Below the pieces are notes generated by a model, which saw only the letters and a list, made by a program, of their open reading frames with translations, made no database searches and was not told the DNA's origin. A program made the translations under genes and the position numbers. A stretch of 46,397 nucleotides of DNA from Acidiferrobacteraceae bacterium. Its GTDB lineage: Bacteria; Pseudomonadota; Gammaproteobacteria; Arenicellales; UBA868. Shown here in pieces: positions 3,833 to 31,991 of this stretch (position 1 is its first letter; each line of letters opens with the position of its first letter). The stretch lies in NCBI GenBank assembly GCA_002721105.1, contig PBJL01000014.1, positions 100,180-146,576 on the forward strand. Reading direction: 5' to 3'.

Positions 3833-4417
3833 ATGGACAATTCGGTCATCAACCATTGCAAAACATACGCGTCTAATTTGATTTCTGTTCTGGAGCATCA
3901 AGATTGGACTAATGTTGAACTATTAGCTAACGATATTTATCGAGCGTGGAACGAAGGTAGAAGTTTATTTCTCTGTGGAAATGGTGGTAGCGCAGGGAAC
4001 GCAATTCATCTTGCGAATGATTTTTTGTATGGAGTTGGTCATGAACTAGTGCCTGGAATTAAGGTAGAAGCGCTGAGTGCAAATGCATCTGTTCTCACGT
4101 GCCTTGCAAATGATGTTGGATATGATGAGATATATTCTATTCAGCTTGAAGCCAAGGCTTCTTCTGGCGATATTTTGGTTATTTTGTCAGGGAGTGGCAA
4201 TTCACCAAATGTTATCAGAGCTCTTCAGAAGGGAAATGAATTAGACATGAAGACTTACGCAATTCTTGGCTATGCTGGAGGTGTTTGTCTTGATACTGCT
4301 AAAACATCAATTCATGTGCCAATCGATGATATGCAAATATCTGAAGATATGCAGTTGATCGTGGGCCATATTTGTATGCAATGGTTAAATCAAAAAAGAA
4401 AAGAAGATCTCCAGTGA
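3833..4417 (+). CDS. gmhA: phosphoheptose isomerase-like SIS protein (GmhA family)
   Basis: A 194-residue SIS-domain isomerase. GmhA converts sedoheptulose 7-phosphate to D-glycero-D-manno-heptose 7-phosphate in the cytoplasm, the first committed step to nucleotide-activated heptose. The signature GNGGSAG is followed by a family-typical helix (NAIHLANDF). The phosphate-binding SGSGNSPNV and the C-terminal [11 protein letters not shown] with a nearby His (VGHI) also fit GmhA. It opens the operon, and its stop overlaps the next gene's GTG start as GTGA. AAAGGA lies only 2 bases before the ATG, an unusually tight ribosome-binding site. This may be a second, cluster-specific copy beside a core LPS gmhA elsewhere. 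Confidence 0.85.
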
Positions 4418-5412
4418 AGTCAGTTATAACTGGTGGTGGAGGTTTCATTGGTAGCCATCTTTCGGAAGCTCTCGTTAATTTGGGGCACGAGGTTGTTGTT
4501 ATAGATAATTTTTGTACCGGTCAAAGAAAAAATCTAGAAAAGATTAAAAAACAAATTGATTTAATCGAGGAGGATATAAGATATCCGGGACAATGGTCGA
4601 AAGCTTTTCATGGTGCAGACTGGGTCGTGCATTTAGCGGCTCTCGCAGATATTGTGCCGTCGATAGAAAATCCAGAAGATTATTTTGGCACCAATGTCAG
4701 TGGTACGTTCAATGTTTTGCAAGCATCAAGAGACGCTGGCGTTTCGAAATTCATTTACACTGCTTCTTCGTCCTGTTATGGGTTGCCAGATGGGTTCCCG
4801 ACTTCAGAATTAGCACGAATCCAACCACAATACCCATATGCACTAACAAAGTGGTTAGGTGAAGAGTTAGCCCTTCATTGGGCGAAAGTTTATCAAATGC
4901 CTGTCTTATCTATGCGGCTATTCAATGTATATGGTCCTCGATCTCGAACATCAGGCACATATGGTGCTGTATTCGGTGTATTTTTAGCACAAAAGCTCGC
5001 GGACCAACCTTTCACCGTGGTGGGAGATGGTAATCAAACCCGAGATTTTACTTATGTCTCAGATGTTGTTGACGCATTTATCGTTAGTGCGAACAGCAAT
5101 GCTACGGAAGAAATTTTCAACATAGGAAGTGGAGCAACGGTATCAATTAACCAAATTGTTGAATTACTTGGAGGAAATCAAGTAGTAATGCTGCCTAAGC
5201 GCCCGGGAGAGCCAGATTGTACTTTTGCCGACATCACTAAAATTCAAAATAAGTTGCGCTGGATGCCTAAGGTTAACATTGAGGATGGTGTTGCGAATTT
5301 ATTACTCAATATCGATGATTGGAAAGATGCGCCTGTTTGGACTCAGGATACAATTAAGAAGGCTACACGTAGTTGGTTTCATCATTTAGGTGGTTCTCGC
5401 GAGATTGAGTAA
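4414..5412 (+). CDS. extended SDR: NDP-sugar epimerase/dehydratase
   Basis: A 332-residue NAD-dependent short-chain dehydrogenase of the extended type, acting on a nucleotide sugar (C4-epimerase or 4,6-dehydratase class). The Rossmann motif [10 protein letters not shown] is at residues 6-15. The active site shows SSSCYG and then YPYALTKW, giving the Tyr-xxx-Lys pair, and RLFNVYGP is typical of UDP-glucose/UDP-GlcNAc 4-epimerase relatives. The frame extends upstream to 4372, but GTG 4414 overlaps the GmhA stop as GTGA, has an AGAAG ribosome-binding site, and puts the Rossmann loop at the normal distance from the start. The last bases overlap the following nucleotidyltransferase. Epimerase is the closest call; the true substrate could be an NDP-heptose. 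Confidence 0.8.
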
Positions 5413-6190
5413 TATTCATGCTCTTTTATTGGCAGCTGGAGCGGGAACAAGGTTGCGACCCTTTACTGATAATTGGCCTAAGTGTTTGATGCCTATATCT
5501 GGTAGGCCATTACTTGAATATTGGCTGTGTATGCTCAAAAAGTGTTCAATACCAAAGGTTATAGTAAACATTCATCACCATCAAAAAATTGTTGAAAAAT
5601 TCTTGGGTCAACCGCAATTTGAAAGTTGGGTTTCAGGAGTTGTGGAACCCTTTTTGTTGGGTACTGCTGGAACTCTGCGCGAAAATTGGAAATCTTTTAA
5701 AGGAACAAGAATACTGCTAGTGCATGCCGACAATTGGTGTCAGTGTGATATTTCACATTTTATAGATTTTCACATGAATCATCGTCCCAGTAATGCAGTT
5801 ATGACAATGATGACATTTCAATCTGATAATCCTAAGGAATGCGGCATTCTAGAGCTAGACGACAACGGTTTGGTGCAGAATTTGCATGAAAAAGTTGAGC
5901 AACCGCCAGGTACCCTAGCAAATGGTGCAGTTTATCTTTTGGAGCCAGAGATTCTAGATTGGGTGATGGACAATCCAGAAGTTAATGATTTCAGCACAGA
6001 AGTAATTCCGAATTTTTTTGATCGTATTGCAACTTGGGAAAATACTGATATTCATCGAGATATTGGTAAAATAGCATCATTACGATTAGCTCAGCTTGAT
6101 CGTGCGCCTAATACCTGTTGGCACGATGCGACATTCTGGCATAGCGAATTTCAAAATAATCCAATACATGATATGTTAGCTTCGATATAA
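5390..6190 (+). CDS. sugar-1-phosphate nucleotidyltransferase (HddC/ManC-like)
   Basis: A 266-residue GT-A-like nucleotidyltransferase that would couple an NTP to a sugar 1-phosphate. The N-terminal signature GAGTRLRPFTDNWPKCLMPI is complete, and LVHADNWCQCD supplies the metal-binding Asp. With a GmhA-like isomerase and a heptose-kinase-like protein either side, D-glycero-D-manno-heptose 1-phosphate guanylyltransferase (HddC) is the attractive role, but mannose-1-P or another hexose-1-P is not excluded. The start is uncertain: GTG 5390 overlaps the preceding epimerase by 23 bases, while TTG 5405 gives a more typical short N-terminus with GGTGG about 11 bases upstream. Confidence 0.8.
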   Translation: MVLARLSNIHALLLAAGAGTRLRPFTDNWPKCLMPISGRPLLEYWLCMLKKCSIPKVIVNIHHHQKIVEKFLGQPQFESWVSGVVEPFLLGTAGTLRENWKSFKGTRILLVHADNWCQCDISHFIDFHMNHRPSNAVMTMMTFQSDNPKECGILELDDNGLVQNLHEKVEQPPGTLANGAVYLLEPEILDWVMDNPEVNDFSTEVIPNFFDRIATWENTDIHRDIGKIASLRLAQLDRAPNTCWHDATFWHSEFQNNPIHDMLASI

Positions 6191-6193
6191 ATA

Positions 6194-7744
6194 ATGAATG
6201 CCTCATCTACCAAAGTCATTATGCTCACCGCTTTTGAAAGCGAGACAGCAAATCTTTTTTCAGGGGATGATGTGTCATTATGTTTTGGCTTGTTCAATCT
6301 ACTTCACCCGGGACACTTACGCTATTTTCAAATGGCAAAACAATACGGTAGTAAGTTAGTTGTAGGTCTTCGAGGTGACAATATGCTTTCTGCTGTTGAG
6401 CGAAGAGAGTGTTTTCCTGATATCGAACGTGCTAAAGCGGTAGCTGCTTTAGAGTTAATTGACAACGTAATCATATTAGACAATGGTGGGTTAGAAAATC
6501 TTGTTAGTTTAATTAAACCAACCACGCTTGTTCTTGGAAGAGAATTTGAGAAAGAAAGATCCCTTGAGGTTTATGAGGCTGTAGATAGGCTAAATCGTTT
6601 GGGAGGTCGCGTTGTCTATGAGGCTGGGGAGATTCACTATGCAAGGTCAGACTTGTTGTTTGGGCGACAGGATGAAATCGAAGGAAGCAGGTCTAAACAA
6701 TTTAAATCAGCACTGTTAGCACAAGATATTCAATTGGATACCATTCTTGCACATGCTGAAGACGAACCACGACCAAAAATTCTTGTAATTGGAGATACCA
6801 TCGTCGATCGATATGTAGCCTGTGATCCAGTAGGAATGAGTAATGAGGCTCCTGTGATAGTCGTTAAGGAGTTAGAGAGCAAGGATTTTATAGGTGGAGC
6901 TAGTATAGTTGCCGCGCATGTTTCTGCATTAGGAGGCGATTGCTATTATCTTTCCATTACTGGCGATGATTCTCACGCTCACTTCGTCAAGGATCGCTTA
7001 GCCGATTACAATGTAACCGCTGACTTAATTGAGGATGCAAGTCGACCAACAACTAGCAAAATTCGTTATATGGTGGAAAATCAGAAATTATTTCGTGTTA
7101 GTCGACTGAAAGAACATAGGTTGTCTCCAGATCTTGAAAACATTCTAGTCAATAGGATAAAAGATTTAGCAACTAGTATTGATGCTATTATTGTTTCCGA
7201 TTTCGTTTATGGAGTCATCACAAATAAAATACTCGATGTGTTAGAGCAGGTTTCAAGACAACATCAGATTCCACTTTATGGTGATTTGCAATGTAGCAGT
7301 CAAGTCGGGGATATATCAAAGTTTAAAGACTTCAAGTTGCTTTGCCCAACAGAACGTGAGGCACGCATTGCGTTAAGTAATCAAGATGATGGAGTCGAGT
7401 ATGTATCCAATTTATTGATGTCACAAACTCGGTGTACCAATTTAGTTTTAAAGTTAGGTGCTGATGGATTTATTGCCTATAGTCGAGATTTGACCAACGA
7501 TTTTGTTTATCGACAGCATTTTCCAGCTCTAACAATTAATCCAGTCGACGTGGCAGGAGCTGGTGATTCTTTACTGGCATCAATAGCAGTTGGTTTGTCT
7601 CGAGGTTTAAGCTTAATGGAAGCGTCTGCTCTCGGTAGTTGCGTGGCAGCACTTGCTGTGCAGTCGTTGGGTAATATGCCGGTGGATTATCGCGCGGTCA
7701 AAGTTTTCGCAGAACAACAAGGACTTATCCCTAATGCAATTTAA
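6194..7744 (+). CDS. HldE-like bifunctional nucleotidyltransferase-kinase, domains in reversed order
   Basis: A 516-residue two-domain protein. Residues about 28-165 are a cytidylyltransferase-type nucleotidyltransferase with the HxGH motif (HPGH, residues 38-41). Residues about 195-510 are a PfkB/ribokinase-family sugar kinase opening ILVIGDTIVDRY and ending with the catalytic GAGD loop (455-458). HldE makes ADP-heptose with the same two activities, but its kinase comes first and its nucleotidyltransferase last; here the order is swapped. The protein probably phosphorylates heptose 7-phosphate at C1 and may attach a nucleotide. It sits 3 bases after another nucleotidyltransferase gene, so one of the two activities may be redundant or specialised. 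Family assignment is firm; the substrate is inferred. Confidence 0.8.
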   Translation: MNASSTKVIMLTAFESETANLFSGDDVSLCFGLFNLLHPGHLRYFQMAKQYGSKLVVGLRGDNMLSAVERRECFPDIERAKAVAALELIDNVIILDNGGLENLVSLIKPTTLVLGREFEKERSLEVYEAVDRLNRLGGRVVYEAGEIHYARSDLLFGRQDEIEGSRSKQFKSALLAQDIQLDTILAHAEDEPRPKILVIGDTIVDRYVACDPVGMSNEAPVIVVKELESKDFIGGASIVAAHVSALGGDCYYLSITGDDSHAHFVKDRLADYNVTADLIEDASRPTTSKIRYMVENQKLFRVSRLKEHRLSPDLENILVNRIKDLATSIDAIIVSDFVYGVITNKILDVLEQVSRQHQIPLYGDLQCSSQVGDISKFKDFKLLCPTEREARIALSNQDDGVEYVSNLLMSQTRCTNLVLKLGADGFIAYSRDLTNDFVYRQHFPALTINPVDVAGAGDSLLASIAVGLSRGLSLMEASALGSCVAALAVQSLGNMPVDYRAVKVFAEQQGLIPNAI

Positions 7745-8720
7745 AAAAATATTTGTTACAGGTGGGGCTGGTTATGTAGGGGCTATGCTTGTTCCGAGAT
7801 TGCTTTCTGAGGGGTGCTCGGTGACGGTGCTCGATCTTATGATTTATGGGGAAGAGGTATTGAACCCCCATCCTAACCTGAGGTTAATCAAAGGTGATAT
7901 TAGAAATGAAAGTCTTCTGAAGAGTAATATTTCTAGTCATGATTGTGTGATTCATCTTGCTTGTATATCAAATGATCCAAGTTTTGAACTTAATCCAAAT
8001 CTTGGAAAATCAATCAATCTAGATGCTTTTGAGCCTTTGGTAGAAATAAGTCGAGATAGTGGAGTTGAGCGTTTTATTTACGCATCATCATCAAGTGTAT
8101 ATGGCGTAAAAAACGTCCAGGATGTGCACGAAGATATGATGGTTGAGCCCTTGACCGATTATTCTCGGTTCAAAGCCGATTGCGAGCACATACTTTCAAA
8201 TTATCAATCGAAAGATTTTACAACTGTAACCATCCGACCTGCTACGGTATGCGGATATTCACCCAGACAACGTTTAGATGTCGTTGTAAATATTTTGACG
8301 AATTTTGCCTATCATAAGCGAAAGATTACAGTGTTTGGTGGAAAGCAATTACGACCAAATATACATATCAAAGATATGGTCGAAGCATATCTAGTGCTTA
8401 TGAATGCACCACAAGATTTAGTGGCAGGAAAAATCTACAATGCTGGCTTTGAGAATCAATCTGTTCAGGAATTGGCAGAAATTGTAAAGAGTGTTATTGG
8501 TGACGATGTTTTGTTAGAGACTCAGGCTACAAATGATAATCGTTCTTACCATATTTCTTCCAAGAAAATAAAAAGTGAACTTGGTTTTGAGCCGAAATGC
8601 ACTATTGAAGATGCGGTCATCGATCTCAAAAATGCTTTTGAAGGACAGCAAATTCCAGATTCTATGGATAATGAAAAATATTTCAATATCAAGCGAATGC
8701 AGTCTATTGAACTGAATTAA
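7734..8720 (+). CDS. extended SDR: NAD-dependent epimerase/dehydratase (2)
   Basis: A 328-residue extended SDR. It begins MQFKKIFVTGGAGYVGA with the Rossmann glycine motif, has SSSSVYG and YSRFKAD (the catalytic Tyr-xxx-Lys), and RPATVCGYSPRQR downstream. The frame stays open to 7653, but ATG 7734 carries an AAGGA ribosome-binding site 10 bases upstream and gives the normal N-terminus; it overlaps the HldE-like gene by 11 bases. Likely an NDP-sugar epimerase, dehydratase or reductase acting before the aminotransferases that follow, for example generating the keto group they need. It differs clearly from the SDR at 4414 in the region around the active site, so it probably does a different step. 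Confidence 0.8.
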   Translation: MQFKKIFVTGGAGYVGAMLVPRLLSEGCSVTVLDLMIYGEEVLNPHPNLRLIKGDIRNESLLKSNISSHDCVIHLACISNDPSFELNPNLGKSINLDAFEPLVEISRDSGVERFIYASSSSVYGVKNVQDVHEDMMVEPLTDYSRFKADCEHILSNYQSKDFTTVTIRPATVCGYSPRQRLDVVVNILTNFAYHKRKITVFGGKQLRPNIHIKDMVEAYLVLMNAPQDLVAGKIYNAGFENQSVQELAEIVKSVIGDDVLLETQATNDNRSYHISSKKIKSELGFEPKCTIEDAVIDLKNAFEGQQIPDSMDNEKYFNIKRMQSIELN

Positions 8721-8724
8721 TGTT

Positions 8725-9834
8725 ATGAAAGTCCGATACTCCTACCTTAGACAACAATTCGAAAATTGCGATGACCTATGGGATGAACTCCGGGACTTTG
8801 TAGAAACTGGTGATTTCACTTTAGGGGCGCCCCTATTAGAATTCGAGAAAAAATTTGCCAAACTTATCGGGGTTAAATATGCAATTGGAGTTAATTCCGG
8901 TACAGATGCCATAAAATTGTCATTGCGAGCTCTCGGTGTGGGATACGGTGATGAAGTTATTACAGCAGCCAATACATTTGTTGCAACAGTTGGAGCTATA
9001 GCAGAACTTGGGGCAGTACCCATATTCGTAGACTGCAATGATACATTTTGTATGGATGTGGAACAGGTCGAAAAAGCTATTACTGAAAAAACCAAGGCTA
9101 TTGTTCCTGTGCATTTTACTGGATATATGACTGACATGCGTAAGCTTTTACCTATTGCTAACCGGTATCAAATTCCTGTTGTTGAAGATGCGTGCCAATC
9201 GATTTTAGGCGCTATTGATATGAAGAATGCCGGAACCTGGGGTCAGTTAGGAGCGTTTTCGCTTCATCCACTAAAGAATCTTAATGTATGGTCTGACGGC
9301 GGAATAATTACCACAAATGACGAAACTTTGGTGACCCAAATTAGACTCTTAAGGAATCACGGCTTGGTTGGACGAGACACTGTTGAGATTCTCGGAACTA
9401 ATTCTCGGTTGGATACAATTCAAGCTGTTGTTGGTAACTGGCTTATTCCTCAAACGAACGAAATCGCGACCAAGCGGATAGAAAATGCAGCATATTATGA
9501 TAAATTCTTATCCAAAATAAAGGAAATTGAAATTCCTCCTAGGCCGCTCGATTTTAGAATTGTTTACCATCTCTATATTGTCTTCGCAGAGCAAAGAGAT
9601 ATGTTATTAGATTACTGCCTTGACAATGGTATCGAAGCAAAAGTTCACTATCCGACGCCAATATATAGACAACCCGCGTTATCTAAGTATGGCTATAAAG
9701 AAGGAGATTTCCCGACCACAGATCGGCACGCAGAACAAATTATTACGTTTCCTTGCGATCAGCATTTAAGTCGAGAAGAGATGGATTATGTAATAAAAAC
9801 TGTAACTAAGTTTTATGAAGATTATTCGGCATGA
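8725..9834 (+). CDS. DegT/DnrJ/EryC1/StrS aminotransferase (1)
   Basis: A 369-residue PLP-dependent sugar aminotransferase that would replace a keto group on a nucleotide sugar with an amino group. Visible family marks are NSGTDAIKLSLRAL, DEVITAANTF, VVEDACQS and the Schiff-base lysine in FSLHPLKNLN. Its length is normal for the family. It starts 4 bases after the preceding SDR gene, and its stop overlaps the next gene's start as ATGA. It is paralogous to the next gene, with the same motifs in the same places (HPLKNLN in both), which suggests either a tandem duplication or two steps on a diamino sugar. Sugar and carbon position cannot be told from sequence. Confidence 0.88.
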   Translation: MKVRYSYLRQQFENCDDLWDELRDFVETGDFTLGAPLLEFEKKFAKLIGVKYAIGVNSGTDAIKLSLRALGVGYGDEVITAANTFVATVGAIAELGAVPIFVDCNDTFCMDVEQVEKAITEKTKAIVPVHFTGYMTDMRKLLPIANRYQIPVVEDACQSILGAIDMKNAGTWGQLGAFSLHPLKNLNVWSDGGIITTNDETLVTQIRLLRNHGLVGRDTVEILGTNSRLDTIQAVVGNWLIPQTNEIATKRIENAAYYDKFLSKIKEIEIPPRPLDFRIVYHLYIVFAEQRDMLLDYCLDNGIEAKVHYPTPIYRQPALSKYGYKEGDFPTTDRHAEQIITFPCDQHLSREEMDYVIKTVTKFYEDYSA

Positions 9835-10934
9835 TAGAAGTTCCATATGTAAATTTGTCTGCCCAATGGAATGAAGAAAGAGATGATTTGCTTCCAATTA
9901 TTGAGTCTATTCTTGAATCTGGTCAATATGTGGGAAGCAAAGAAATAGAGCAGCTTGAAAGCAGGATAGAGAAATCATTTGGAGTTAAACATGCTATCAC
10001 GCTCAATAGTGGAACTGATGCCTTAGTTCTTGCTCTATTAGCGATAAATGTGGGCCCTAACGATGAAGTAATTACACCACCAAATTCGTTTATTGCTTCC
10101 ACAGCAGCTATTGCCAGAGTAGGCGCTAAGCCTGTTTTCGTGGATGTACATGCAGATCAAAACATTGATCCTAATTTGATAGAGGGGTCTATCACAAAAA
10201 AAACTAAAGCTATTATGCCAGTCCACTTAACTGGACGAGTTTCTGATATGGAAATGATTATGGAAATAGCTAATCATCACGATGTTTTGGTTGTTGAAGA
10301 TGCGGCACAGGCAGCAGGAGCCCGATTTAACGAGAGAGTAACTGGATCATGGGGTAGTGCGGGTTGTTTCTCTGCGCACCCACTAAAGAATCTTAATGCA
10401 TGTGGAGATGCTGGTTTTATAACTACGAATGATGACGAGATAGCAAAAAAAGTACATCTGATGAGAAATCATGGATTGGTAGATCGCGAAACAGTTAACG
10501 AGTTCGGCTTTGTTTCTAGGATGGATTCTTTACAAGCTGCGATACTTAAATTTCGATTGGCGCACTTAAAAGACATCGTTGAGAAACGACGAAACAATGT
10601 TTCAATATATCGGTCTATTTTAGATCCAAATTTTGTATTCATCCCCGCAGATCGTCCGGAAGAGTTTAATACCTGGCATACGTTCGTCATTCAAGTCGAA
10701 AAAAGGGACGAGCTCAGAGCATTTTTAGCGAGTAGAAATATTGAAACTGCTATCCATTACCCCGTTCCAATTCATTTACAACCAGCGTGCCGATATTTGG
10801 GTTATGGTCCAGGCGATTTTCCTGTAACTGAATATCAGGCAGATCGAATACTTTCCCTTCCCGTCAATCAAAGCCTGACTAATGATCAAGTCTGTTTGGT
10901 AGCCGAAACAGTCAATAAATTTTATGGGGCCTGA
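9831..10934 (+). CDS. DegT/DnrJ/EryC1/StrS aminotransferase (2)
   Basis: A 367-residue PLP-dependent sugar aminotransferase, a paralog of the preceding gene. Motifs are LNSGTDALVLALLAI, DEVITPPNSFIAS, VVEDAAQAAGA and the PLP lysine in FSAHPLKNLN. The active-site surroundings differ from the first copy (NACGDAGF against NVWSDGGI), so the substrates or regiochemistry may differ. The start ATG overlaps the previous stop by 4 bases (ATGA), and the next gene's ATG follows this stop with no gap. Both indicate one tightly coupled message. Confidence 0.88.
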   Translation: MIEVPYVNLSAQWNEERDDLLPIIESILESGQYVGSKEIEQLESRIEKSFGVKHAITLNSGTDALVLALLAINVGPNDEVITPPNSFIASTAAIARVGAKPVFVDVHADQNIDPNLIEGSITKKTKAIMPVHLTGRVSDMEMIMEIANHHDVLVVEDAAQAAGARFNERVTGSWGSAGCFSAHPLKNLNACGDAGFITTNDDEIAKKVHLMRNHGLVDRETVNEFGFVSRMDSLQAAILKFRLAHLKDIVEKRRNNVSIYRSILDPNFVFIPADRPEEFNTWHTFVIQVEKRDELRAFLASRNIETAIHYPVPIHLQPACRYLGYGPGDFPVTEYQADRILSLPVNQSLTNDQVCLVAETVNKFYGA

Positions 10935-12596: not shown

Positions 12597-13407
12597 CGAA
12601 GCAAAATCTGTGTTGGATGAGAGATCAATATTTCTACGAAAACTGATCGTTAGAATGCTTGATGGTGGTCGAAGAGGGCACGTAGGCCCAGCTGGCTCAA
12701 TTGTTGAGTTATTAAGAGTGCTATATGACTCATGGCTTCGAGTTAGACCACAAGAGCCCAAGTGGGTTGATCGTGATCGTTTTATTTTGAGCAAAGGACA
12801 TGGTTGTTTAGCGCTATATGCAATTTTGGCAGACAAAGGATTCTTTTCAAAAAATGAATTAGATACATTTTGTTCTAGTGAGTCACGTCTAGGCGGGCAT
12901 CCAGAAACGAAGGTTCCCGGCGTAGAAGCCTCAACTGGATCTTTAGGGCATGGTTTACCTATTGGGGTTGGCTTAGCTTTAGCTGGGAAAATTGGTGGTT
13001 GTAAGCATAGGATCGCTGTTGTTGTTGGCGATGGTGAGCTGAATGAAGGGTCGGTATGGGAAGCAGCAATGTCTGCATCTAAGCATCAACTTTCAAATCT
13101 AACTGTTTTTATAGATTACAATAAGATGCAGTCCTATGGTTTATTGTTGGATGTTATGGATTTGGAGCCATTGTCAAAGAAATGGCAAAGTTTTGGCTTT
13201 GCGACAAAAGAAGTAGATGGGCATGATGTCATGGCTCTGGAAAAGCTGATGTGTTCTTTGCCGCTAGACCCATCTAAGCCCACAGCTGTGATTTGTCACA
13301 CTGTTAAAGGAAAAGGATTTTCTGTAGCTGAAGGCCAGGCCACATGGCACCATAAATCAGGACTATCAGACGAGGATATCACTAAATTATACGAGAGTTT
13401 GGGTTGA
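12589..13407 (+). CDS. transketolase, N-terminal (ThDP-binding) subunit
   Basis: A 272-residue protein equal to the first third of transketolase, the diphosphate-binding half of a split enzyme. It shows FILSKGHGCLALYA, GVEASTGSLGHGLP and the ThDP/metal motif GDGELNEGSVWEAA followed by DYNKMQSYG. The start is a TTG at 12589, supported by AAGGA 8 bases upstream, and it overlaps the previous gene by 8 bases. It pairs with the next gene to make a complete enzyme moving two-carbon units between sugars. In this operon it could supply sedoheptulose 7-phosphate to the GmhA-like isomerase, or act on a modified sugar. A full-length transketolase is encoded separately at 27537, so this pair is probably pathway-specific. 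Confidence 0.88.
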   Translation: MNDEAKSVLDERSIFLRKLIVRMLDGGRRGHVGPAGSIVELLRVLYDSWLRVRPQEPKWVDRDRFILSKGHGCLALYAILADKGFFSKNELDTFCSSESRLGGHPETKVPGVEASTGSLGHGLPIGVGLALAGKIGGCKHRIAVVVGDGELNEGSVWEAAMSASKHQLSNLTVFIDYNKMQSYGLLLDVMDLEPLSKKWQSFGFATKEVDGHDVMALEKLMCSLPLDPSKPTAVICHTVKGKGFSVAEGQATWHHKSGLSDEDITKLYESLG

Positions 13408-13425
13408 GATTAGAGGTACTGATTC

Positions 13426-14352
13426 ATGCGAAGAACTAGTTTAGATTGCGTATATCAGCTTGCATGCCGGGATGATAGAGTCATCTTCATAGGATCCGAT
13501 TTAGGGGCGGGGGTGTTGGCTGATATGAAAAAGAACATGCCTGAACGTTGGATCATGGAAGGTGTTTCAGAACAACATATCATAGGTATGGCAGCCGGTT
13601 TATCGATGGAAGGATACATACCATACGTCAATACGATAGCGTCTTTTCTAACCCGAAGATGCTTTGAGCAGCTTGCTATTGACCTCAGTTTAATGAACTT
13701 ACCGGTCCGACTTATTGCTAATGGCGGTGGTGTTGTCTATGCCCCATTAGGGCCAACACACCAGGCAATTGAAGACATTGCAATTCTGCGTACTTTACCT
13801 AATATGACGATTATTGCTCCTTGTGATGCTGCTGAGATGCGGCGAGTCATGGATCAAACCTTGGATTGGGATGGCCCAATATATATCCGATTGGCAAAGG
13901 GGGGCGATCCCATTATTAGTTCCGACGACCACAATTTTTCGATAGGCAAGGGAATCTTGTTTCGAGAAGTTGGTGAAGTTCTTGTTATTTCTACCGGGGT
14001 AATGACACAATGCGCTCTTGCTACCGCAGATATGTTGCAACATCATGGTATTACAACTGGTGTTCTGCATTGTCACACCGTTAAGCCACTTGATCAAGAG
14101 CTCATACTGGAGCTCGCTAGTAAAGTACGTTTGGTTGTAACTCTAGAAGAGCATATTGTTTCCGGGGGACTCGGAACTGCGGTATTAGAAACCCTTCACC
14201 GCAATCCAATTGATTCAATGCCCCAAGTGAAATGCGTTGGAATACCAGACCGATTTGTAGATGAATATGGTTCGCAGGAAAGCATATGGCAATCTTTTGG
14301 ACTATCTCCCCAAGATATATCTCAAACTATTAAAGAGCAACTTGGGCAATAA
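13426..14352 (+). CDS. transketolase, C-terminal (pyrimidine-binding) subunit
   Basis: A 308-residue protein equal to the middle and C-terminal domains of transketolase. The catalytic Glu lies in the ThDP pyrimidine region (MEGVSEQHIIGMAAGLSMEG), followed by ANGGGVVYAPLGPTHQAIED, where the substrate-binding GPTHQ is conserved. The C-terminal Rossmann-like domain contains VISTGVMTQCAL and VTLEEHIVSGGLG. An AGAGG ribosome-binding site precedes ATG 13426. It starts 18 bases after the N-terminal subunit, and the two would form an alpha2-beta2 enzyme. The 1-deoxyxylulose-5-phosphate synthase and E1 pyruvate dehydrogenase families share this fold, but GPTHQ and the split sizes favour the transketolase-like group. 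Confidence 0.88.
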   Translation: MRRTSLDCVYQLACRDDRVIFIGSDLGAGVLADMKKNMPERWIMEGVSEQHIIGMAAGLSMEGYIPYVNTIASFLTRRCFEQLAIDLSLMNLPVRLIANGGGVVYAPLGPTHQAIEDIAILRTLPNMTIIAPCDAAEMRRVMDQTLDWDGPIYIRLAKGGDPIISSDDHNFSIGKGILFREVGEVLVISTGVMTQCALATADMLQHHGITTGVLHCHTVKPLDQELILELASKVRLVVTLEEHIVSGGLGTAVLETLHRNPIDSMPQVKCVGIPDRFVDEYGSQESIWQSFGLSPQDISQTIKEQLGQ

Positions 14353-14353
14353 A

Positions 14354-15160
14354 ATGTCAGATTTTGAAAAATTCTTTTCCAAAAAAGAATCTGAACTAAG
14401 TGAGCGTTTCATTGAAGAAGGCTATATCATAACTAAAGTTGAAAACATAAGTATGCTTAATGCGATACAGGAATTTGTTTCCAGATGTGCCGCAAGTCAT
14501 CTTAATCAAGAACTAAATGAGCCGGTCGATTTTTTGAATAGTGCCCATCGTTTTCTTAAAATTGAACAGCTGAATGCTTTACGATTGCATGTAATCGAGG
14601 CCGTAAACTCGGAAGATTGGTTTAGAGCGGGTTATTTTAATCTTGCGCAGAACCTCCTTGAAACTATTGTGGGTAATGAATTAGTCATGCAAGCGAAGGT
14701 TGGTTTGAGTATACAACTCCCACAGGATGATAGTTCATTATTGCCAGTACATGCAGATGTTTGGTCGGGAGATTCACCTTTTGAGGTTGTTGTATGGTTA
14801 CCTTTGGTGGATTGTTTTGGCACGAAGACAATGTTTCTTTTGCCGCCAGGCCCGACGCGAGATTTGCATGCTCGGTTTAAAGAGTTTGAGCATGACACAA
14901 GTGAACATATATATAAATCTATAGAATCACAATTATCTTGGATAAAGATAGATTATGGAGAAGTATTGATTTTTAACCAAAATCTTCCGCATGGAAATCG
15001 TATCAACGATGAGCCAGAATCAAGATGGTCGATGAATTGCCGGTTTAAATCTGTATTCTCACCCTATCGCGACAAAAAATTGGGAGAATTTTTTAAGCCC
15101 ATTACCTTAAGGGCCGCTTCCCGTATAGGGTTGAAATACCAGTATCCCGAGATTCGTTGA
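14354..15160 (+). CDS. 2OG-Fe(II) oxygenase of the sporadic carbohydrate cluster type
   Basis: A 268-residue non-haem iron dioxygenase. The metal triad is visible as HAD (His133, Asp135) and the distal His213 in NQNLPHGN, with an Arg (224 or 230) placed to bind 2-oxoglutarate. I recognise the pattern as the oxygenase that accompanies LIC12192-family genes in 'sporadic carbohydrate cluster' loci, and the gene next door is such a protein. It would hydroxylate or oxidise a sugar carbon using O2 and 2-oxoglutarate. The frame is open from 14261, but ATG 14354, one base after the transketolase stop, gives the sensible start. The actual substrate is unknown. Confidence 0.75.
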   Translation: MSDFEKFFSKKESELSERFIEEGYIITKVENISMLNAIQEFVSRCAASHLNQELNEPVDFLNSAHRFLKIEQLNALRLHVIEAVNSEDWFRAGYFNLAQNLLETIVGNELVMQAKVGLSIQLPQDDSSLLPVHADVWSGDSPFEVVVWLPLVDCFGTKTMFLLPPGPTRDLHARFKEFEHDTSEHIYKSIESQLSWIKIDYGEVLIFNQNLPHGNRINDEPESRWSMNCRFKSVFSPYRDKKLGEFFKPITLRAASRIGLKYQYPEIR

Positions 15161-15171
15161 GTTAAAGAGCC

Positions 15172-15588
15172 ATGGTAGGATTTAGAGGGTATGTCAGTAG
15201 CCGTCCTTTTTTTGGCCAGCGTGCCCCACAGCGCGTTCAGAATCTGGTGATTAGAGATTATTGCAAGGGAAATAGTTTGTTGTATCTTTTAAGCGCTGTT
15301 GAATACATCATGCATGATTGTTACGCTATGCTAGAAAAGGTACTAGTTGAGTTGCCCGAAATAGACGGAATAATTTTTTATAGCATGTTTCAATTACCTG
15401 TGGAAAAGGTGAAAAGGCAGAGAATTTATAGCAACGTCTTGAAGGAAGGGCGCTCTTTGCACTTTGCTCTTGAAACGTTAAAAATCGAAACAGAACGGGA
15501 TATCAGTAGCATCGAGGATATTTGGGAAGTTCAACAAGCAGTCGACTATGCGCCTTGTTTAAGTGACTTGGCAGCATTGCTAGATTAA
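15172..15588 (+). CDS. LIC12192-family sporadic carbohydrate cluster protein
   Basis: A 138-residue protein that I recognise as the small LIC12192-family protein of 'sporadic carbohydrate cluster' loci. Family-like features are the opening GFRGYVSSRPFFGQRAPQ, then QNLVIRDYCKGN, LLSAVEYIMHDCYAML, the IDGIIFYSMFQLP strand and KRQRIY. Conserved Arg, Cys and His residues on short helices suggest an enzyme or a sugar-binding partner, but its function is unknown to me. There is no signal peptide or membrane segment. It follows the oxygenase by 11 bases, matching the co-occurrence of these two families. It may be an accessory subunit for the oxygenase or a separate catalyst; nothing in the sequence decides. 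Confidence 0.7.
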   Translation: MVGFRGYVSSRPFFGQRAPQRVQNLVIRDYCKGNSLLYLLSAVEYIMHDCYAMLEKVLVELPEIDGIIFYSMFQLPVEKVKRQRIYSNVLKEGRSLHFALETLKIETERDISSIEDIWEVQQAVDYAPCLSDLAALLD

Positions 15589-15659
15589 AATATTTCTATT
15601 GTTAGGCATTCCAAAAATGTTAGTTTTTAGTCTATAAGGGTTTTTAGTCATTACTTGAA

Positions 15660-16322
15660 ATGGGAAAATTTATAGAAATTGTAACGAGCTTGCATAAGAG
15701 TACAGCTAGAAACTGCCTAGCTCGTATGAATGACGATAAAGTGCACTGCATGAAAATTGCTCGGCAATTTGAAAGTGACTATTGGGATGGGGGCAGACGG
15801 TATGGCTATGGTGGTTATCGGTTTATTCCTGGTCATTGGGCACCCGTGGCGCAGAAACTTATTGACACATATCATCTGACGAATGAATCATCAGTTTTAG
15901 ATGTGGGATGTGGTAAAGCTTTCCTTCTATATGAGATGAAACAAATTCTACCAGGCCTCCGAATATCTGGATTTGATGTTTCTCATCACGGCATCGAAGA
16001 CGCAAGAAAAGAAATTAAACCATATCTTTTTATGCATAGCGCAGAAGAGGATTATCCATTTCAGGATAGCGAATTCGATTTAGTGATCTCTTTGGGAACT
16101 TTGCATAACTTGCAAATATTTCATCTAAAAAAAGCCCTAACCGAGATTGACCGTGTAGGTAAGAAAGGATTTGTGATGGTGGAAAGTTATCGCAACGAAG
16201 AAGAATTGTTTAATTTGCAGTGTTGGGCACTTACTGCCGAGGCTTTCTTTCACTTTGATGAATGGTGTTGGCTTTTTGAAGAATATGGTTATAGTGGTGA
16301 CTTTGAATTTATATATTTTTAA
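15660..16322 (+). CDS. class I SAM-dependent methyltransferase
   Basis: A 220-residue Rossmann-type methyltransferase. Motif I is VLDVGCGKAFLLYEM, the acidic end of strand 2 is SGFDVSHHGIEDA, and the post-II region is EFDLVISLGTLHNL. The N-terminus includes FESDYWDGGRRYGYGGYRF, an aromatic and glycine-rich lid also found in methyltransferases of polysaccharide loci. It would transfer a methyl from SAM to an oxygen or nitrogen of the sugar made by this operon. A 71-base gap containing a 10-base direct repeat (GTTTTTAGTC at 15623 and 15640) precedes it. A conserved-looking open stretch in the same frame follows its stop and is reported separately. Confidence 0.8.
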   Translation: MGKFIEIVTSLHKSTARNCLARMNDDKVHCMKIARQFESDYWDGGRRYGYGGYRFIPGHWAPVAQKLIDTYHLTNESSVLDVGCGKAFLLYEMKQILPGLRISGFDVSHHGIEDARKEIKPYLFMHSAEEDYPFQDSEFDLVISLGTLHNLQIFHLKKALTEIDRVGKKGFVMVESYRNEEELFNLQCWALTAEAFFHFDEWCWLFEEYGYSGDFEFIYF

Positions 16323-16343
16323 TATAGCAATTTTGCATCCTAA

Positions 16344-16487
16344 GCGTATGAGGCAGATTTGCATTTTCTGTATTTTGAACAATATTGGCATAAGAACCCC
16401 TTGCGCACCATTAAAACTCTATTAGATACTGAGTTTTTGAAAGAAAAACTCGGGACTTTTTTCCGTCTCGACAAAGAGACCTCTTGA
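16344..16487 (+). pseudogene. possible gene remnant after the methyltransferase
   Basis: In the same frame as the methyltransferase, after its stop at 16322 and a second stop at 16341-16343, 47 codons run open to TGA 16485-16487. They have protein-like composition (for example HFLYFEQYWHKNP and LLDTEFLKEKLGTFFRLD). There is no ATG in this frame. It may be the decayed end of a lost gene or a former C-terminal extension. Chance is possible at this length. I do not recognise the family. Confidence 0.3.
16431..16451 (+). terminator. AT-rich stem-loop with following T-run
   Basis: GAGTTTTT and AAAAACTC form a perfect 8-base stem around GAAAG, with a six-T run 6 bases later (16457-16462). A second small stem GTCTC/GAGAC sits at 16465-16480. 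It might attenuate the operon before the RmlD-like gene. The stem is weak and lies inside the remnant frame, so it could be chance. Confidence 0.25.
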
Positions 16488-16518
16488 GTTTTATGACTTT
16501 AATCAGGCAGCTAAACTG

Positions 16519-17385
16519 ATGAGATTAATTGTGGGTATTAATAGTGATATCGGTCGTGCTATCAAAAACTACTGGGATGAGATGGGTGTTGCGCATCACG
16601 GAAGCACAAGATATCAAGAGCTTGCGACCAGTACTAGACCATATATTGACCTCACTGACGATATTCATTTAGATGCAAGCAACCACTATAGTGCGGCAGT
16701 AATATGCGCTGGCGTCGGTCGGTTAGAGATATGTCGGCAAGATCCTATAGGTACGAGAAAAATTAATATAGAAGGGACACTAAGACTTGCACGATATCTT
16801 TGTGACCGAGGCACACGCGTGATCTTTCTGTCTACCGATAAGGTGTATGATGGTTCCAAACAATACAGAAATCCAGATGAGCCAGTTTCCCCAATAACCG
16901 AATACGGGCGCCAGAAAGCCGAAGTTGAAAAATCCATCACAAAATTGAGCGCGGGTGTTGTTTTGAGGATTGCGAAAGTGGTATACCCTGAGCAAGGCCT
17001 ACTCTCTGAATGGATAGAAAAGCTAAGAGATGGTAAGAAAATATCACCCTTCTCGGATATGTGGTTTTCACCAGTATCGATGCAAATGATTTGTAAAATT
17101 ATGGATGAATTGATTCAAAGAGAAGCGAAGGGGATATGGCATGCATCCTCTCAAGAGGATATAACTTACGAAATAGCTGCAAGACATATCGCAAGTTGCT
17201 TAGGTGCAGACCAACAACTGATTCAGCCCTATTCTTTCGTAAACAATCATAGAGTTTCTCCGAATGAGGCCCCGAGATATACAACCCTCGATATGCAAAA
17301 AACAGCTAATATAGGTATCACCGCGCCTAATCCTATTGACACCATCCACCAAACTATGTGTGTAGCGAACAAAATAATAGAGTAA
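16519..17385 (+). CDS. RmlD-like NAD(P)-dependent sugar reductase (SDR)
   Basis: A 288-residue SDR of the RmlD substrate-binding type, the family that reduces dTDP-4-dehydrorhamnose. Here the glycine motif is abbreviated (IVGINSDIGRAI). FLSTDKVYDG and the catalytic Tyr-xxx-Lys in TEYGRQKAEVE are clear, and the C-terminal lobe WFSPVSMQMICKIMDELI matches the family. It would reduce a 4-keto NDP-sugar late in the pathway. It follows the methyltransferase and a 196-base stretch holding the remnant and stem-loops, the largest gap inside this operon, so expression may drop or restart here. No rmlA/B/C genes are present, so a rhamnose role is unlikely. Confidence 0.75.
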   Translation: MRLIVGINSDIGRAIKNYWDEMGVAHHGSTRYQELATSTRPYIDLTDDIHLDASNHYSAAVICAGVGRLEICRQDPIGTRKINIEGTLRLARYLCDRGTRVIFLSTDKVYDGSKQYRNPDEPVSPITEYGRQKAEVEKSITKLSAGVVLRIAKVVYPEQGLLSEWIEKLRDGKKISPFSDMWFSPVSMQMICKIMDELIQREAKGIWHASSQEDITYEIAARHIASCLGADQQLIQPYSFVNNHRVSPNEAPRYTTLDMQKTANIGITAPNPIDTIHQTMCVANKIIE

Positions 17386-17398
17386 TGATTGGCTAAGT

Positions 17399-18598
17399 AT
17401 GATCACCGATAAAATTATCTGGAGATTGACAAAAGGATTGAGTATTGTTTTGTCAATACCGATACTGCTGCTAGTAGTGATTGTTCGCCCATTAATTTTT
17501 ATTCGTTTCGGTTATTTTTTTGGTGATCGAATAGGTCATTTTGCTTTCGATGTTGAATATTATCTATGCAAAAAGAATAATTTAAATCAAAAGAAAACCC
17601 TAGATATTTTTTTCATAGTAGGCCCTCCTTGTAATAATGCTTTGGTCAGGATGGTGAAACGTAAAATCAAGATAACAAATTTGGCAGTGGTTTTGTATGA
17701 GGGGATAAATGCTATGCCGTTTGCGGCATCTCATGTAATTCATCCTGCAAGATTAGAAAATGGATCAAGAGATCGCGAGGAATTATTCCAGACTAGCCCG
17801 AGGAATCTTGATTTTACCTTAGCCGAGATGCTAAAAGGCAGGGAATATTTGAGGGATGTGGGCCTGACAGAAGGCGATCAATATGTATGTCTTATCGTAA
17901 GAGACAATGCCTATTTGTCATTGGACACTAGTCGAGATTTCTCTTATCACGATTATCGAGATTCAGATATATCATCTTATAATAAAGCGGCTAAGGCACT
18001 TAGCGATAAGGGTTACTGGGTGTTCCGAATGGGAAAAGTGGTGAAAGACCCATTCCATTGTAGTGAATCCAAAGTCATAGACTATGCTAGTTCTAGCTCG
18101 AAATCGGATTTTCTAGATATTTGGTTAACAGCACATTGTAAGTTCGCTATAAGTACATCAACAGGGCTTGATGCTATTTCTGAGATATTTCGAATACCTA
18201 TGGTTTTTATTAATCATTTACCAATTGGTAATCTCAAGACAGGAGATCCACGGCATATTGAATTATTCAAGACCCTCAAATGGAAGAAAACAAAACAACC
18301 ACTAAGTTTGAAAGAGCAAATAGCTACAGGGGCTATAAATTTTTTTGGAACACATCAATACGATAAACAAGGAATAGAGATCAGTGATAATAGTGAAGAT
18401 GATATTTTAGCTGCAACGTTAGAGATGGAAAGTCGACTAAATGACGATTGGGTAGAAGAGCCTAAAGACCAAATCTTGCAGGAAAAGTTCTATGGAATTC
18501 TAGAAAGTTGGGATGAATTTGGAAAGTATCACGGAAGCGCAAAAAGTCGAATATGTAGGAATTTTTTAAGAAAAAATCACGATTGGTTTTTGGGGTGA
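17399..18598 (+). CDS. TIGR04372-type glycosyltransferase
   Basis: A 399-residue protein that I recognise as the putative glycosyltransferase family labelled TIGR04372. An N-terminal hydrophobic helix (IVLSIPILLLVVIVRPLIF) anchors it to the inner membrane. FGDRIGHFAFDVEYYL, then YVCLIVRDNAYL, YHDYRDSDI, GYWVFRMGKVV and ISTSTGLDAIS with INHLPIG are family-type blocks of a GT-B-like fold. It probably transfers the sugar made by this operon to a lipid-linked acceptor. It lies 13 bases after the reductase gene and 7 bases before the ABC exporter, consistent with synthesis, transfer and export in one message. Biochemical activity of this family is inferred, not known to me. Confidence 0.75.
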   Translation: MITDKIIWRLTKGLSIVLSIPILLLVVIVRPLIFIRFGYFFGDRIGHFAFDVEYYLCKKNNLNQKKTLDIFFIVGPPCNNALVRMVKRKIKITNLAVVLYEGINAMPFAASHVIHPARLENGSRDREELFQTSPRNLDFTLAEMLKGREYLRDVGLTEGDQYVCLIVRDNAYLSLDTSRDFSYHDYRDSDISSYNKAAKALSDKGYWVFRMGKVVKDPFHCSESKVIDYASSSSKSDFLDIWLTAHCKFAISTSTGLDAISEIFRIPMVFINHLPIGNLKTGDPRHIELFKTLKWKKTKQPLSLKEQIATGAINFFGTHQYDKQGIEISDNSEDDILAATLEMESRLNDDWVEEPKDQILQEKFYGILESWDEFGKYHGSAKSRICRNFLRKNHDWFLG

Positions 18599-18605
18599 GA
18601 TATAT

Positions 18606-20378
18606 ATGAAAAAAATGTGGCCAATGTTGCGAGAACTAATTCAGAGATTCCCGGGGCATTTTATTGGGTTACTAATATTAATATTCATCCAAGGAGGATT
18701 GAATGCAGTATCTATTATTTCCATTGCTCCCATAACGGACCTGCTTCTAAAGCAAAGCGGTAGTGAAGTTAATGAAATTACTAGTATTTTTCAGAGTCTC
18801 GTAGAAACATTAGGTTTTGATTTTAACATTGTTATCGTTTTCATTTTTTTTGCGATAGTAATGATCGTAAATGGTCTTGCAGGGGTAGCTACAGTATATG
18901 CTACTACGCGCATAAAGTTCGATGTTCTTGTTCATTTGTTGAGCGATGCAATGAGTAGTTTTTATCGAGCACGATATCAGTTTTTTAGTCAAGGAAAAAT
19001 CGGTACATTGTTGAACTCATTTCAGTATGAAGTCGCAAAAATCGGTGATACTTTTGGAAATTTTGCTCGGGTCTTAGCAAATTTATTACAAGCTGTTATT
19101 TTTCTTGGGGTACCATTAGCGGTTAACCCGAAGATGACCGTTATTTTTTTAGGTTCGGCATTAGTTATTACCACCCCTTTATGGCTGCTTCGTAAATACA
19201 CCTATAAATTGGGGGAAAAATTAACAACATATGGAAATGATGTTGGTGCTGTTCTGGAGGAAAATTTGTCTTTTGCTAAGCTAGTGAAAGGTTTTGGTTT
19301 AAGCAAAACAGCAGTTGCTGGATACCAGGAAAAAATAAAAAAAATCACCCGAATTTCAATTTATTTCGGAACCATTACTAAAAGTATACAATTGTTATTT
19401 ATCCCGCTAGGAACTTTGGCAGCACTTTTAGCGTTATACATATCCCATACAGATGGAACTGCGATTAGTGATATGGCAGTGGTTTTGTTTGCATTTGTTC
19501 GCGCGATTCCGATGCTTGGTATGGTAGCTCAAGGGAAAGCATCAATTGAAGGCTTTATGCCGGCGTACGAACAATTACAAAACCTTCAAAATGAAGCGAA
19601 AAAGTTGACTGAGTCTACTGGTGAAATAAAGTACGAAAGTTTAAGTGAGAGCATCCACTTTAAAAATGTATCTTTTAAATATGAATCTGATAGACCTGCT
19701 ATTAAAAAGTTAAATTTAAAATTTAATAAAGGGAACATGTACGCCCTTGTTGGGCCATCTGGCGCAGGAAAGACTACAGTAATCGATTTGTTATTAGGCT
19801 TGTATCAACAAGATAGCGGATCGATATTATTGGATGATATGGAACTAGAGCATTATGATCTTGACAGCTTTAGATCTAGAGTTGGATATGTTCCTCAGGA
19901 GCCCCAATTATTTAATGCTTCCGTTCGTGAAAACTTGTTATGGGCGTCTCCGGAATCGGATCAGAAACAGATATGGAGCGCATGTCGTTTAGCAAATGCG
20001 GAGCAGTTCGTCAAACAAATGCCTAAAGGCCTCGACACTGCAGTTGGAGATAAAGGAGTTCGCTTATCAGGAGGGCAGCGCCAAAGATTGGCGTTAGCAA
20101 GAGCAATCATCAGAGAGCCTGACTTTCTAATCTTAGATGAAGCTACGAGTTCTTTAGATACTGAGTCTGAACAGTTAATTCAAGAGTCTATTGAGTATCT
20201 TAAAGATAATAAAAATATGGTCATTATTGTAATTGCTCACAGACTGTCGACCATCAAAACAGCCGATCAAATCTATGTCTTGCAGCATGGTTCAATAGTA
20301 GAGCAAGGCAGCTACCGCGCGCTACTGGATGACACGGGCAGTCGATTAAGTGAATTAGTGCGCCAGCAAGCTTTATAA
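18606..20378 (+). CDS. MsbA-like ABC exporter (fused permease-ATPase)
   Basis: A 590-residue half-transporter: an N-terminal six-helix membrane domain (about residues 1-320) followed by an ATP-binding domain. Walker A GPSGAGKTT is near residue 383, signature LSGGQRQR starts near 487, Walker B LILDEATSSLD follows, and the H-loop is AHRLST. It would act as a homodimer moving a lipid or lipid-linked glycan across the inner membrane. A GGGGTGAG sequence lies just before ATG 18606. As the last gene of the operon it is a candidate flippase for the glycan or glycolipid assembled by the preceding genes. It is not the two-gene Wzm/Wzt type. Multidrug export is the alternative. Confidence 0.85.
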   Translation: MKKMWPMLRELIQRFPGHFIGLLILIFIQGGLNAVSIISIAPITDLLLKQSGSEVNEITSIFQSLVETLGFDFNIVIVFIFFAIVMIVNGLAGVATVYATTRIKFDVLVHLLSDAMSSFYRARYQFFSQGKIGTLLNSFQYEVAKIGDTFGNFARVLANLLQAVIFLGVPLAVNPKMTVIFLGSALVITTPLWLLRKYTYKLGEKLTTYGNDVGAVLEENLSFAKLVKGFGLSKTAVAGYQEKIKKITRISIYFGTITKSIQLLFIPLGTLAALLALYISHTDGTAISDMAVVLFAFVRAIPMLGMVAQGKASIEGFMPAYEQLQNLQNEAKKLTESTGEIKYESLSESIHFKNVSFKYESDRPAIKKLNLKFNKGNMYALVGPSGAGKTTVIDLLLGLYQQDSGSILLDDMELEHYDLDSFRSRVGYVPQEPQLFNASVRENLLWASPESDQKQIWSACRLANAEQFVKQMPKGLDTAVGDKGVRLSGGQRQRLALARAIIREPDFLILDEATSSLDTESEQLIQESIEYLKDNKNMVIIVIAHRLSTIKTADQIYVLQHGSIVEQGSYRALLDDTGSRLSELVRQQAL

Positions 20379-31966: not shown

Positions 31967-31991
31967 TGAGCATAATTTTTAGGAGCTTAGC

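Follow-up and report, generated by a model that had tools for sequence, protein, structure and literature searches.

The 46,397-nucleotide (nt) stretch analyzed here (the window; positions 100,180 to 146,576 of contig PBJL01000014.1, assembly GCA_002721105.1, Acidiferrobacteraceae bacterium) carries at 3833 to 20378 a set of 16 consecutive open reading frames (ORFs) on the + strand, which we tentatively interpret, at a probability of about 0.42, as a variant of a widespread, so far undescribed nucleotide-sugar pathway, whose product would be a C4-oxidized, C2-extended, oxygenated, methylated and, in this variant, aminated nucleoside diphosphate (NDP) heptose-like sugar. The cluster is no chance assembly but a real, recurrent, and co-varying pathway; gene families, conservation, co-occurrence, the loss of transketolase residues, and the fold of the LIC12192-family protein were computed in this study. 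The new findings of most weight are an oxygenase partner with a recombinase fold and a remodeled split transketolase. A previous interpretation obtained from the letters alone (the sequence-only reading) had described the region as a single operon for a decorated heptose and its export. All 16 ORFs were confirmed, and Pfam and NCBIfam scans of the window proteins gave family assignments in agreement with its gene list, which did contain the split transketolase and LIC12192, but it had noticed neither the remodeling of the former nor the recombinase fold of the latter.

The core of the pathway, consisting of an isomerase, two short-chain dehydrogenases/reductases (SDR1 and SDR2), a kinase/nucleotidyltransferase fusion, HAD and APH domains, the two transketolase subunits (TKN and TKC), a 2-oxoglutarate (2OG)-Fe(II) oxygenase (OX), LIC12192 (LIC), and a methyltransferase (MT), recurs wholly or partly in five phyla. 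A scan of the genome contigs with the single LIC sequence found no relative, whereas an alignment of 40 of 120 homologues did find loci; of 129 loci confirmed in named genomes, the 80 best were taken, together with one locus (L081) from a contig of a viral collection (IMG/VR), for a set of 81. Flanks of 10 kb were fetched, which partly cut the cluster, and a locus was considered complete when LIC lay at least 9 kb from its 5' end and at least 3 kb from its 3' end. In the 35 complete loci outside Bradyrhizobium, family profiles detected OX and LIC 35 times each (LIC by choice of loci), MT 32, TKN and TKC 29 each, APH 27, HAD, SDR2, and the fusion enzyme (a reversed HldE) 24 each, SDR1 21, the SIS isomerase 15, an RmlD-like reductase 13, the aminotransferases DegT2 and DegT1 5 and 4, respectively, and a nucleotide (NTP) transferase 2. 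Thus, the transketolase pair, APH, and HAD do recur around LIC, as the sequence-only reading had proposed to check, with the GmhA-like SIS less frequent; homologous clusters lacking most of the genes at random, which it had named as evidence to the contrary, were not encountered as far as the core is concerned, and yet reversed HldE, SDR2, HAD, APH, TKN, TKC, OX, and LIC stand all in one place at only 15 of the 35 loci. In the Bradyrhizobium group, both DegT genes, TKN, TKC, OX, LIC, MT, and APH occur in 31/31 loci, and SDR1, SDR2, HAD, and reversed HldE in 30/31, the exception (L076) being a short locus; SIS was found within the fetched flank in none of the 31, and in one genome (G130) an SIS-like gene lies about 0.5 kb past it, on the opposite strand. 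The 42 loci placed in an OX tree belong to Pseudomonadota, Cyanobacteriota, Acidobacteriota, Bacteroidota, and Myxococcota, although the labels of metagenome-assembled genomes may be wrong, and, in a test for horizontal spread, their phylum labels change 6 times along the tree compared to a shuffled mean of 6.9, a value as low being reached in 17 of 200 shuffles. In the order-level set around L001, one of two genomes has LIC.

The core genes also co-vary across whole genomes, in keeping with the proposal of one pathway. LIC is present in 64 of 265 Bradyrhizobium genomes and OX exceeds its cut-off in the same 64, with weak sub-cut-off OX matches and no LIC in four more. Even though only part of each genome's candidates was scored for reversed HldE and TKC, so that absences are to be read accordingly, reversed HldE (E up to 1e-90) was found in 63 genomes, all within the LIC-bearing 64, and a close relative of TKC (E up to 1e-70) in 64, corresponding to the same 63 LIC genomes (all but G059) plus G241. 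Of 14 genomes with LIC, drawn from several groups, 12 carry a full-length reversed HldE. Furthermore, TKC is missing at ten loci outside Bradyrhizobium, and in seven of these ten genomes it is found elsewhere, with 50 to 62% identity (L015, L016, L024, L028, L031, L078, and L009); the VYAPLGPTH motif (APLGPTH) was present in 6/6 of those copies that were read. A close relative is absent in the other three, namely, Planctobacterium marinum (G009) and two small assemblies of 0.9 and 1.2 Mb (G010 and G285). In genome G006, the OX-LIC pair stands alone at L078, and a different contig carries reversed HldE, SIS, SDR2, and transketolase as a group. As side observations, OX-LIC is apart from the transketolase at L016, L024, L028, L045, and L078, with several partners elsewhere in these genomes; SDR1, reversed HldE, and SDR2 remain next to the pair at L016 and L024, and no further core gene does at L045 and L078. 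At L081, the DegT pair, OX, LIC, and MT are laid out as in Bradyrhizobium, and the contig may be bacterial, in which case the pathway would not be one of a phage. Since Bradyrhizobium carries the module, bradyrhizose, the O-antigen sugar of photosynthetic Bradyrhizobium with an 11-gene gdh cluster in strain ORS285 (PMC4743980), was considered as a possible product; LIC is restricted to the above-mentioned minority of Bradyrhizobium genomes.

The transketolase of the cluster is split into TKN (12589 to 13407; PF00456), which corresponds to the N-terminal, thiamine diphosphate (ThDP) pyrophosphate-binding subunit, and TKC (13426 to 14352; PF02779 and PF02780). The best PDB match of TKN is the N-chain of the split transketolase 6yak, and both subunits are nearest to the Carboxydothermus enzyme (6yak/6yaj), their closest solved relative, which keeps the His and the Asp (THAGLTVGEDGASH) missing in the cluster family. 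In an alignment of the window with 13 loci, TKN keeps the GDG...N motif and four His residues. The residues of TKC were counted in 71 of 72 sequences (70 loci and the window; L034 fell below the score limit and was dropped), and they are numbered as in E. coli transketolase, where we assume R358, H461, and H473 to be the positions concerned and H461 to serve sugar phosphates in ordinary transketolases. The catalytic Glu and the equivalents of R358 and H473 are kept in 71/71 sequences. However, the position of S385 is occupied by Gly in 69 and Asn in 2, with Ser in 0/71; that of H461 by Gly in 71/71; that of D469 by Leu in 70 and Gln in 1; and that of R520 by Lys in 70 and Arg in 1. All these residues are kept in the housekeeping transketolase encoded in the same window at 27537 to 29561. 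The cluster protein is, therefore, a transketolase by its ThDP site, catalytic Glu, and active-site His, which lacks the usual substrate residues at S385, H461, D469, and R520.

According to PMC5073344, whose numbering we follow for S385, D469, and R520, S385 contacts the substrate phosphate in E. coli transketolase, and a set of substitutions at D469, R520, and S385 shifted the acceptor away from phosphorylated aldehydes. Since conserved substrate residues are lost in 71/71 sequences, the acceptor of the cluster transketolase is probably not an ordinary sugar phosphate. Moreover, the split-gene transketolases of miharamycin and amipurimycin have been proposed to move a hydroxyacetyl unit onto a keto sugar, as described in PMC12247030, which lists 13 further split-gene candidates, all from Streptomycetes. 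These systems, which we could compare with the window by description only, share with it the two-gene arrangement, the sugar-pathway context, and the proposed ketone acceptor, but the window family belongs to surface-sugar-type clusters of mostly Gram-negative bacteria. The lost TKC residues, taken together with the two sets of literature data, lead to the reading that the transketolase branches a sugar with a C2 unit.

A rather unlikely, though serious, alternative is that the transketolase acts first, adding a C2 unit to an unusual aldehyde, such as an amino- or deoxy-aldose that the APH kinase makes or phosphorylates, to give a C8-C9 ketose phosphate that would then be activated by SIS, the kinase, HAD, and the nucleotidyltransferase, much as the octose of the lincosamides is made. 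The retention of R358 and the presence of Lys for R520 in 70/71 sequences leave room for a phosphorylated acceptor, and the occurrence of a noncanonical isomerase, kinase, and phosphatase beside a normal GmhA (8/14 genomes) or HldE (4/14) suggests a substrate other than sedoheptulose 7-phosphate. However, S385 and H461, ordinarily serving sugar phosphates, are replaced throughout, and G009, which has the entry set, carries no close relative of the transketolase.

The enzymes that would open the pathway resemble those of heptose activation, and they are distinct from them. SIS (3833 to 4417; PF13580) finds its best PDB matches in GmhA, but it reaches 114.3 bits with TIGR00441 (GmhA), below the cut-off of 209.45, a threshold which is passed by only 2 of the 9 genomes with matches among 14 controls. 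In both SIS clades, the HxxxE motif of GmhA ends in Asp instead of Glu. The gene at 6194 to 7744 encodes a CTP_transf domain (PF01467, residues 29 to 119) followed by a PfkB domain (PF00294, residues 195 to 493), the reverse of the order in HldE; it keeps both active motifs, HPGH and AGAGD, and scores 195.6 bits against 345 for TIGR02198 and 64.5 against 181.5 for TIGR02199, so it cannot be called HldE by these models. From such features, SIS would be a ketose-phosphate to aldose-phosphate isomerase, and the fusion enzyme a nucleotidyltransferase joined to a sugar-phosphate 1-kinase. Higher-scoring GmhA (163 to 220 bits) and cluster-type SIS (74 to 122 bits) coexist in the 8 genomes already mentioned, and a fused, canonical-order HldE is likewise also present in the 4. 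As dedicated cluster enzymes stand beside ordinary ones in the same genomes, SIS and the fusion enzyme are probably specialized, perhaps for another substrate.

The gene at 10935 to 12596 joins a HAD phosphatase (about residues 1 to 205) to an APH-type small-molecule kinase (PF01636). The HAD half gave no Pfam match, and the motifs DxDNT, VSHK, K, and DDL, which we take to be those of the HAD type, are present in 13/13 aligned sequences. Proteins of the fused size (534 to 564 amino acids) occur at L008, L020, L025, L026, L027, L032, L034, L057, and possibly L074, and two separate genes are found in alphaproteobacterial relatives such as L036. The ManC/HddC-like sugar-1-phosphate nucleotidyltransferase (5390 to 6190; PF00483), an accessory member of the cluster, matches in PDB mannose-1-phosphate guanylyltransferases and two proteins annotated to a 6-deoxy-D-mannoheptose pathway. 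Thus, of the heptose entry that had been proposed from the sequence alone, the set of isomerase, 1-kinase, phosphatase, and nucleotidyltransferase holds, and the heptose label is plausible, but SIS and the fusion fall below the GmhA and HldE cut-offs and ordinary heptose enzymes are often present as well.

Both SDRs are of the epimerase type. The best PDB match of SDR2 (7653 to 8720, probably starting at 7734) is 6vo6 (phmmer 3.8e-41, the next being 2.9e-24), which we take to be C. jejuni Cj1427. The protein carries YSRFK, an instance of the SDR catalytic YxxxK. In PMC10680097, Cj1427 is described as a C4-dehydrogenase acting on GDP-heptose; by this resemblance, SDR2 would oxidize an NDP-sugar at C4. 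SDR1 (4372 to 5412, starting more probably at 4381 or 4414; PF01370) is an extended SDR with WbpP as its best PDB match (4e-47). A 6-deoxy sugar was considered and not favored, since neither SDR shows the Asp-Glu pair that we assume to mark 4,6-dehydratases.

The C. jejuni capsule GDP-heptose pathway (GmhA, HddA, a phosphatase, a guanylyltransferase, and Cj1427), as described in PMC10680097, has a counterpart of each member in the window, which adds the split transketolase, OX, LIC12192, APH, and the reversed kinase/nucleotidyltransferase fusion. The parts resembling GmhA, HldE, HddC, and Cj1427 could therefore be taken to make an ordinary decorated heptose, entered from sedoheptulose 7-phosphate as in C. 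jejuni and then oxidized at C4, aminated, and methylated, with the transketolase merely supplying sedoheptulose 7-phosphate. This explanation appears improbable, considering that a housekeeping transketolase is already encoded in the window, that the cluster enzyme has lost the substrate residues which the housekeeping one keeps, and that the scores stay below the GmhA and HldE cut-offs.

DegT1 (8725 to 9834; PF01041) retains the pyridoxal phosphate lysine and has its best PDB match in 3uwc (1.9e-118), followed by 2oga, QdtB, and WbpE, the last two of which are 3-aminotransferases, and DegT2 (9831 to 10934) matches PF01041 at 3.7e-105. The pair is an optional cassette, as follows from its low counts in the complete loci outside Bradyrhizobium and its constant presence in the Bradyrhizobium group, so the term "amino" in the previously proposed amino, oxidized and/or methylated product applies to some variants only; the genes for amination and methylation and the SDR nearest to Cj1427 agree with the remainder of that description. 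The optional nature of the DegT pair and of the NTP transferase, which change place between clusters, could also indicate two or more stacked pathways, one for an amino sugar (NTP transferase, SDR1, and the DegT pair) and another formed by the rest. We judge this quite improbable, as SDR1 and SDR2 recur without DegT or the NTP transferase and are interleaved with the entry enzymes.

OX (14354 to 15160) and LIC (15172 to 15588) pass the cut-offs of the NCBIfam "sporadic carbohydrate cluster" families TIGR04324 (312.4 bits versus 150) and TIGR04323 (146.5 versus 55), respectively, which are named there without a function. OX lies directly upstream of LIC, on the same strand, in 81/81 loci, with a spacing of -4 to 33 nt in 79 of them. 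In an alignment of 42 of the 81 loci with the window (43 sequences), H133, D135, H213, and R224 are invariant in 43/43; from the family pattern, we presume that the first three form the iron triad (HxD...H) and that R224 is the 2OG-binding Arg. The fold of the predicted model (pLDDT 93.5) matches PhyH-like oxygenases, with PtlH at 16.8 and many unrelated 2OG oxygenases tied near 14, and no sequence match to a solved oxygenase was obtained. OX thus belongs to the 2OG-Fe(II) oxygenase superfamily by triad, Arg, and fold. HygX, EvdO, and AviO1 are oxygenases that create an additional oxidative ring, or an orthoester, between sugars, and OX might do the same, as in the orthosomycins, rather than hydroxylate its substrate; with PtlH scoring higher, so many unrelated enzymes tied, and no solved oxygenase matched in sequence, such a role seems very improbable.

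The partner of OX, LIC12192, has the fold of the serine-recombinase catalytic domain. The link rests on the fold, because Pfam gave no Resolvase match at E up to 10 for any of 40 members and the LIC profile retrieved only chance matches among PDB sequences. The comparison between the LIC and resolvase profiles is weak (probability 8.8%, P 0.0038); in this weak alignment, the Arg of the LDRLxR segment, invariant in 15/15 resolvases (taken from 15 of 20 resolvase loci), aligns to a Gln in LIC, and the position of the nucleophile serine is uncertain by one residue. Apparently, LIC12192 is without the catalytic arginines of serine recombinases, and its 138 amino acids leave no room for a DNA-binding domain. 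It follows that LIC shares its fold with serine recombinases such as resolvase and phiC31 integrase, but it lacks both their invariant Arg and their DNA-binding domain. Among open-licence PMC papers, none was found with "sporadic carbohydrate cluster," LIC12192, TIGR04323, TIGR04324, or SpoChoClust, in agreement with the previous statement that no pathway with the full set is described. Likewise, among the open-licence PMC papers listed for transketolase with heptose or O-antigen, branched sugars, Leptospira loci, or miharamycin, none describes this pathway in its title or abstract.

On these grounds, we suggest that SIS, the PfkB kinase domain, the HAD phosphatase, and the nucleotidyltransferase would convert a heptulose-like ketose phosphate to an NDP-aldose, which SDR2 would oxidize at C4, as Cj1427 does on GDP-heptose, and SDR1 would epimerize or oxidize at another position. 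The two-subunit transketolase could then transfer hydroxyacetyl (C2) to the keto sugar, which would become a C2-branched sugar of about C9, to be oxidized by OX with its constant partner LIC12192 and capped by the methyltransferase. The DegT pair would add amino groups in the window variant, the APH domain may phosphorylate a precursor or an intermediate, and the TIGR04372 glycosyltransferase and the PglK-like ABC protein are candidates for placing the sugar on a lipid-linked surface glycan. In its most specific form, in which a C2-branched, C9-scale heptose is made by a transketolase working on an NDP-keto sugar and LIC12192 is a recombinase domain turned into a sugar-pathway enzyme or a substrate-binding subunit, this scheme must be regarded as doubtful.

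Several observations weigh against the proposed pathway. In the transketolase, some capacity to bind phosphate may persist, given that R358 and H473 are retained and Lys stands for R520, and, according to PMC12247030, none of the split-gene transketolases of the miharamycin type, and no ketone-accepting one, has been characterized in vitro. Detection of SIS is limited to 15/35 complete loci and 0/31 of the Bradyrhizobium group, to which the truncation of the cluster by the 10-kb flanks contributes. As the Bradyrhizobium genomes are related to one another, their 64 occurrences cannot be counted as independent; moreover, in G241, a genome that lacks LIC, a transketolase relative is found at a contig edge, and the divergent OX-LIC pair of G059 is accompanied by neither reversed HldE nor a close transketolase. 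The small assemblies G010 and G285 are without a close transketolase relative, and so is Planctobacterium marinum, which has OX-LIC, SIS, reversed HldE, and an SDR2-like gene; its best transketolase relative, at 34% identity, also reads ALGSTH, with Leu at the key Asp position.

If the proposal is correct, a function would be assigned to two orphan protein families, a DNA-recombinase fold would have been reused in sugar chemistry, and candidate ketone-accepting transketolases would be available outside Streptomycetes, for a reaction described as useful for tertiary alcohols (PMC12247030). With its scattered occurrence in Bradyrhizobium, Azospirillum, and many aquatic bacteria, the pathway could explain unassigned sugars in surface or flagellar glycans.

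The remaining genes of the set are the S-adenosylmethionine methyltransferase MT (15660 to 16322; PF13847), recurrent near LIC, followed by two accessory members, a putative RmlD-like NDP-4-keto-sugar reductase (16519 to 17385; PF04321, 6e-27) and a TIGR04372-family glycosyltransferase (17399 to 18598; 221 bits versus a cut-off of 45), and by an ABC exporter of the MsbA/PglK type (18606 to 20378; PF00664 and PF00005), which agrees with the export function proposed earlier. The NCBIfam models HepA, MsbA, and PglK are all below their cut-offs for this last protein, which is probably a flippase for a lipid-linked glycan. The mechanical ORF starts are too early for several genes, including OX, whose ORF begins at 14261 and whose start is probably at 14354, and the two SDRs. 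Within 3833 to 15588, the genes overlap or almost touch, as expected for the one tightly overlapping message of the sequence-only reading, but beyond this point there are intergenic gaps of 71 nt (15588 to 15660) and 196 nt (16322 to 16519). The latter contains a hairpin of a class at least as frequent in shuffled sequence. The counts from promoter and terminator scans did not exceed those of shuffled sequence (47 versus 51.1 and 10 versus 12.1, respectively) and are, therefore, uninformative as to operon limits. The 16-gene set is bounded by opposite-strand genes on both flanks: upstream, two adjacent - strand genes (within 104 to 3550) diverge from the cluster, Pfam marking one of them as Wzz-like and the other resembling Wzz(fepE) weakly, far below the cut-off, and downstream there are YggT and ProC genes, also on the - strand. 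A GT4 glycosyltransferase gene was noted on the + strand at 104 to 1246.

Further genes were noticed around the core at other loci. A radical-SAM-type gene (family F22, identified by Pfam from the L027 copy only) lies between LIC and MT at L025 (10311 to 11477), L027 (10409 to 11473), L030 (10384 to 11448), and L002 (10366 to 11448). Downstream of the core, genes resembling sugar C-methyltransferases (Methyltransf_13/23/14) occur at L027 (15520 to 16740), L029 (16215 to 17477), and L044 (15296 to 16504), and a family of about 170 amino acids (F13), one copy of which was scanned with no Pfam match, is found in 13/54 loci. The pyruvate kinase of the window (identified by Pfam) had its best match among 6 genomes, at 57%, in a Methylococcales metagenome-assembled genome, which is no more than a hint of taxonomy. 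Finally, genes for an inositol-monophosphatase-like protein, transketolase, GAPDH, phosphoglycerate kinase, pyruvate kinase, and class I fructose-bisphosphate aldolase stand in a row at 26665 to 34487 of the window, which amounts to a central carbon operon close to the sugar island.

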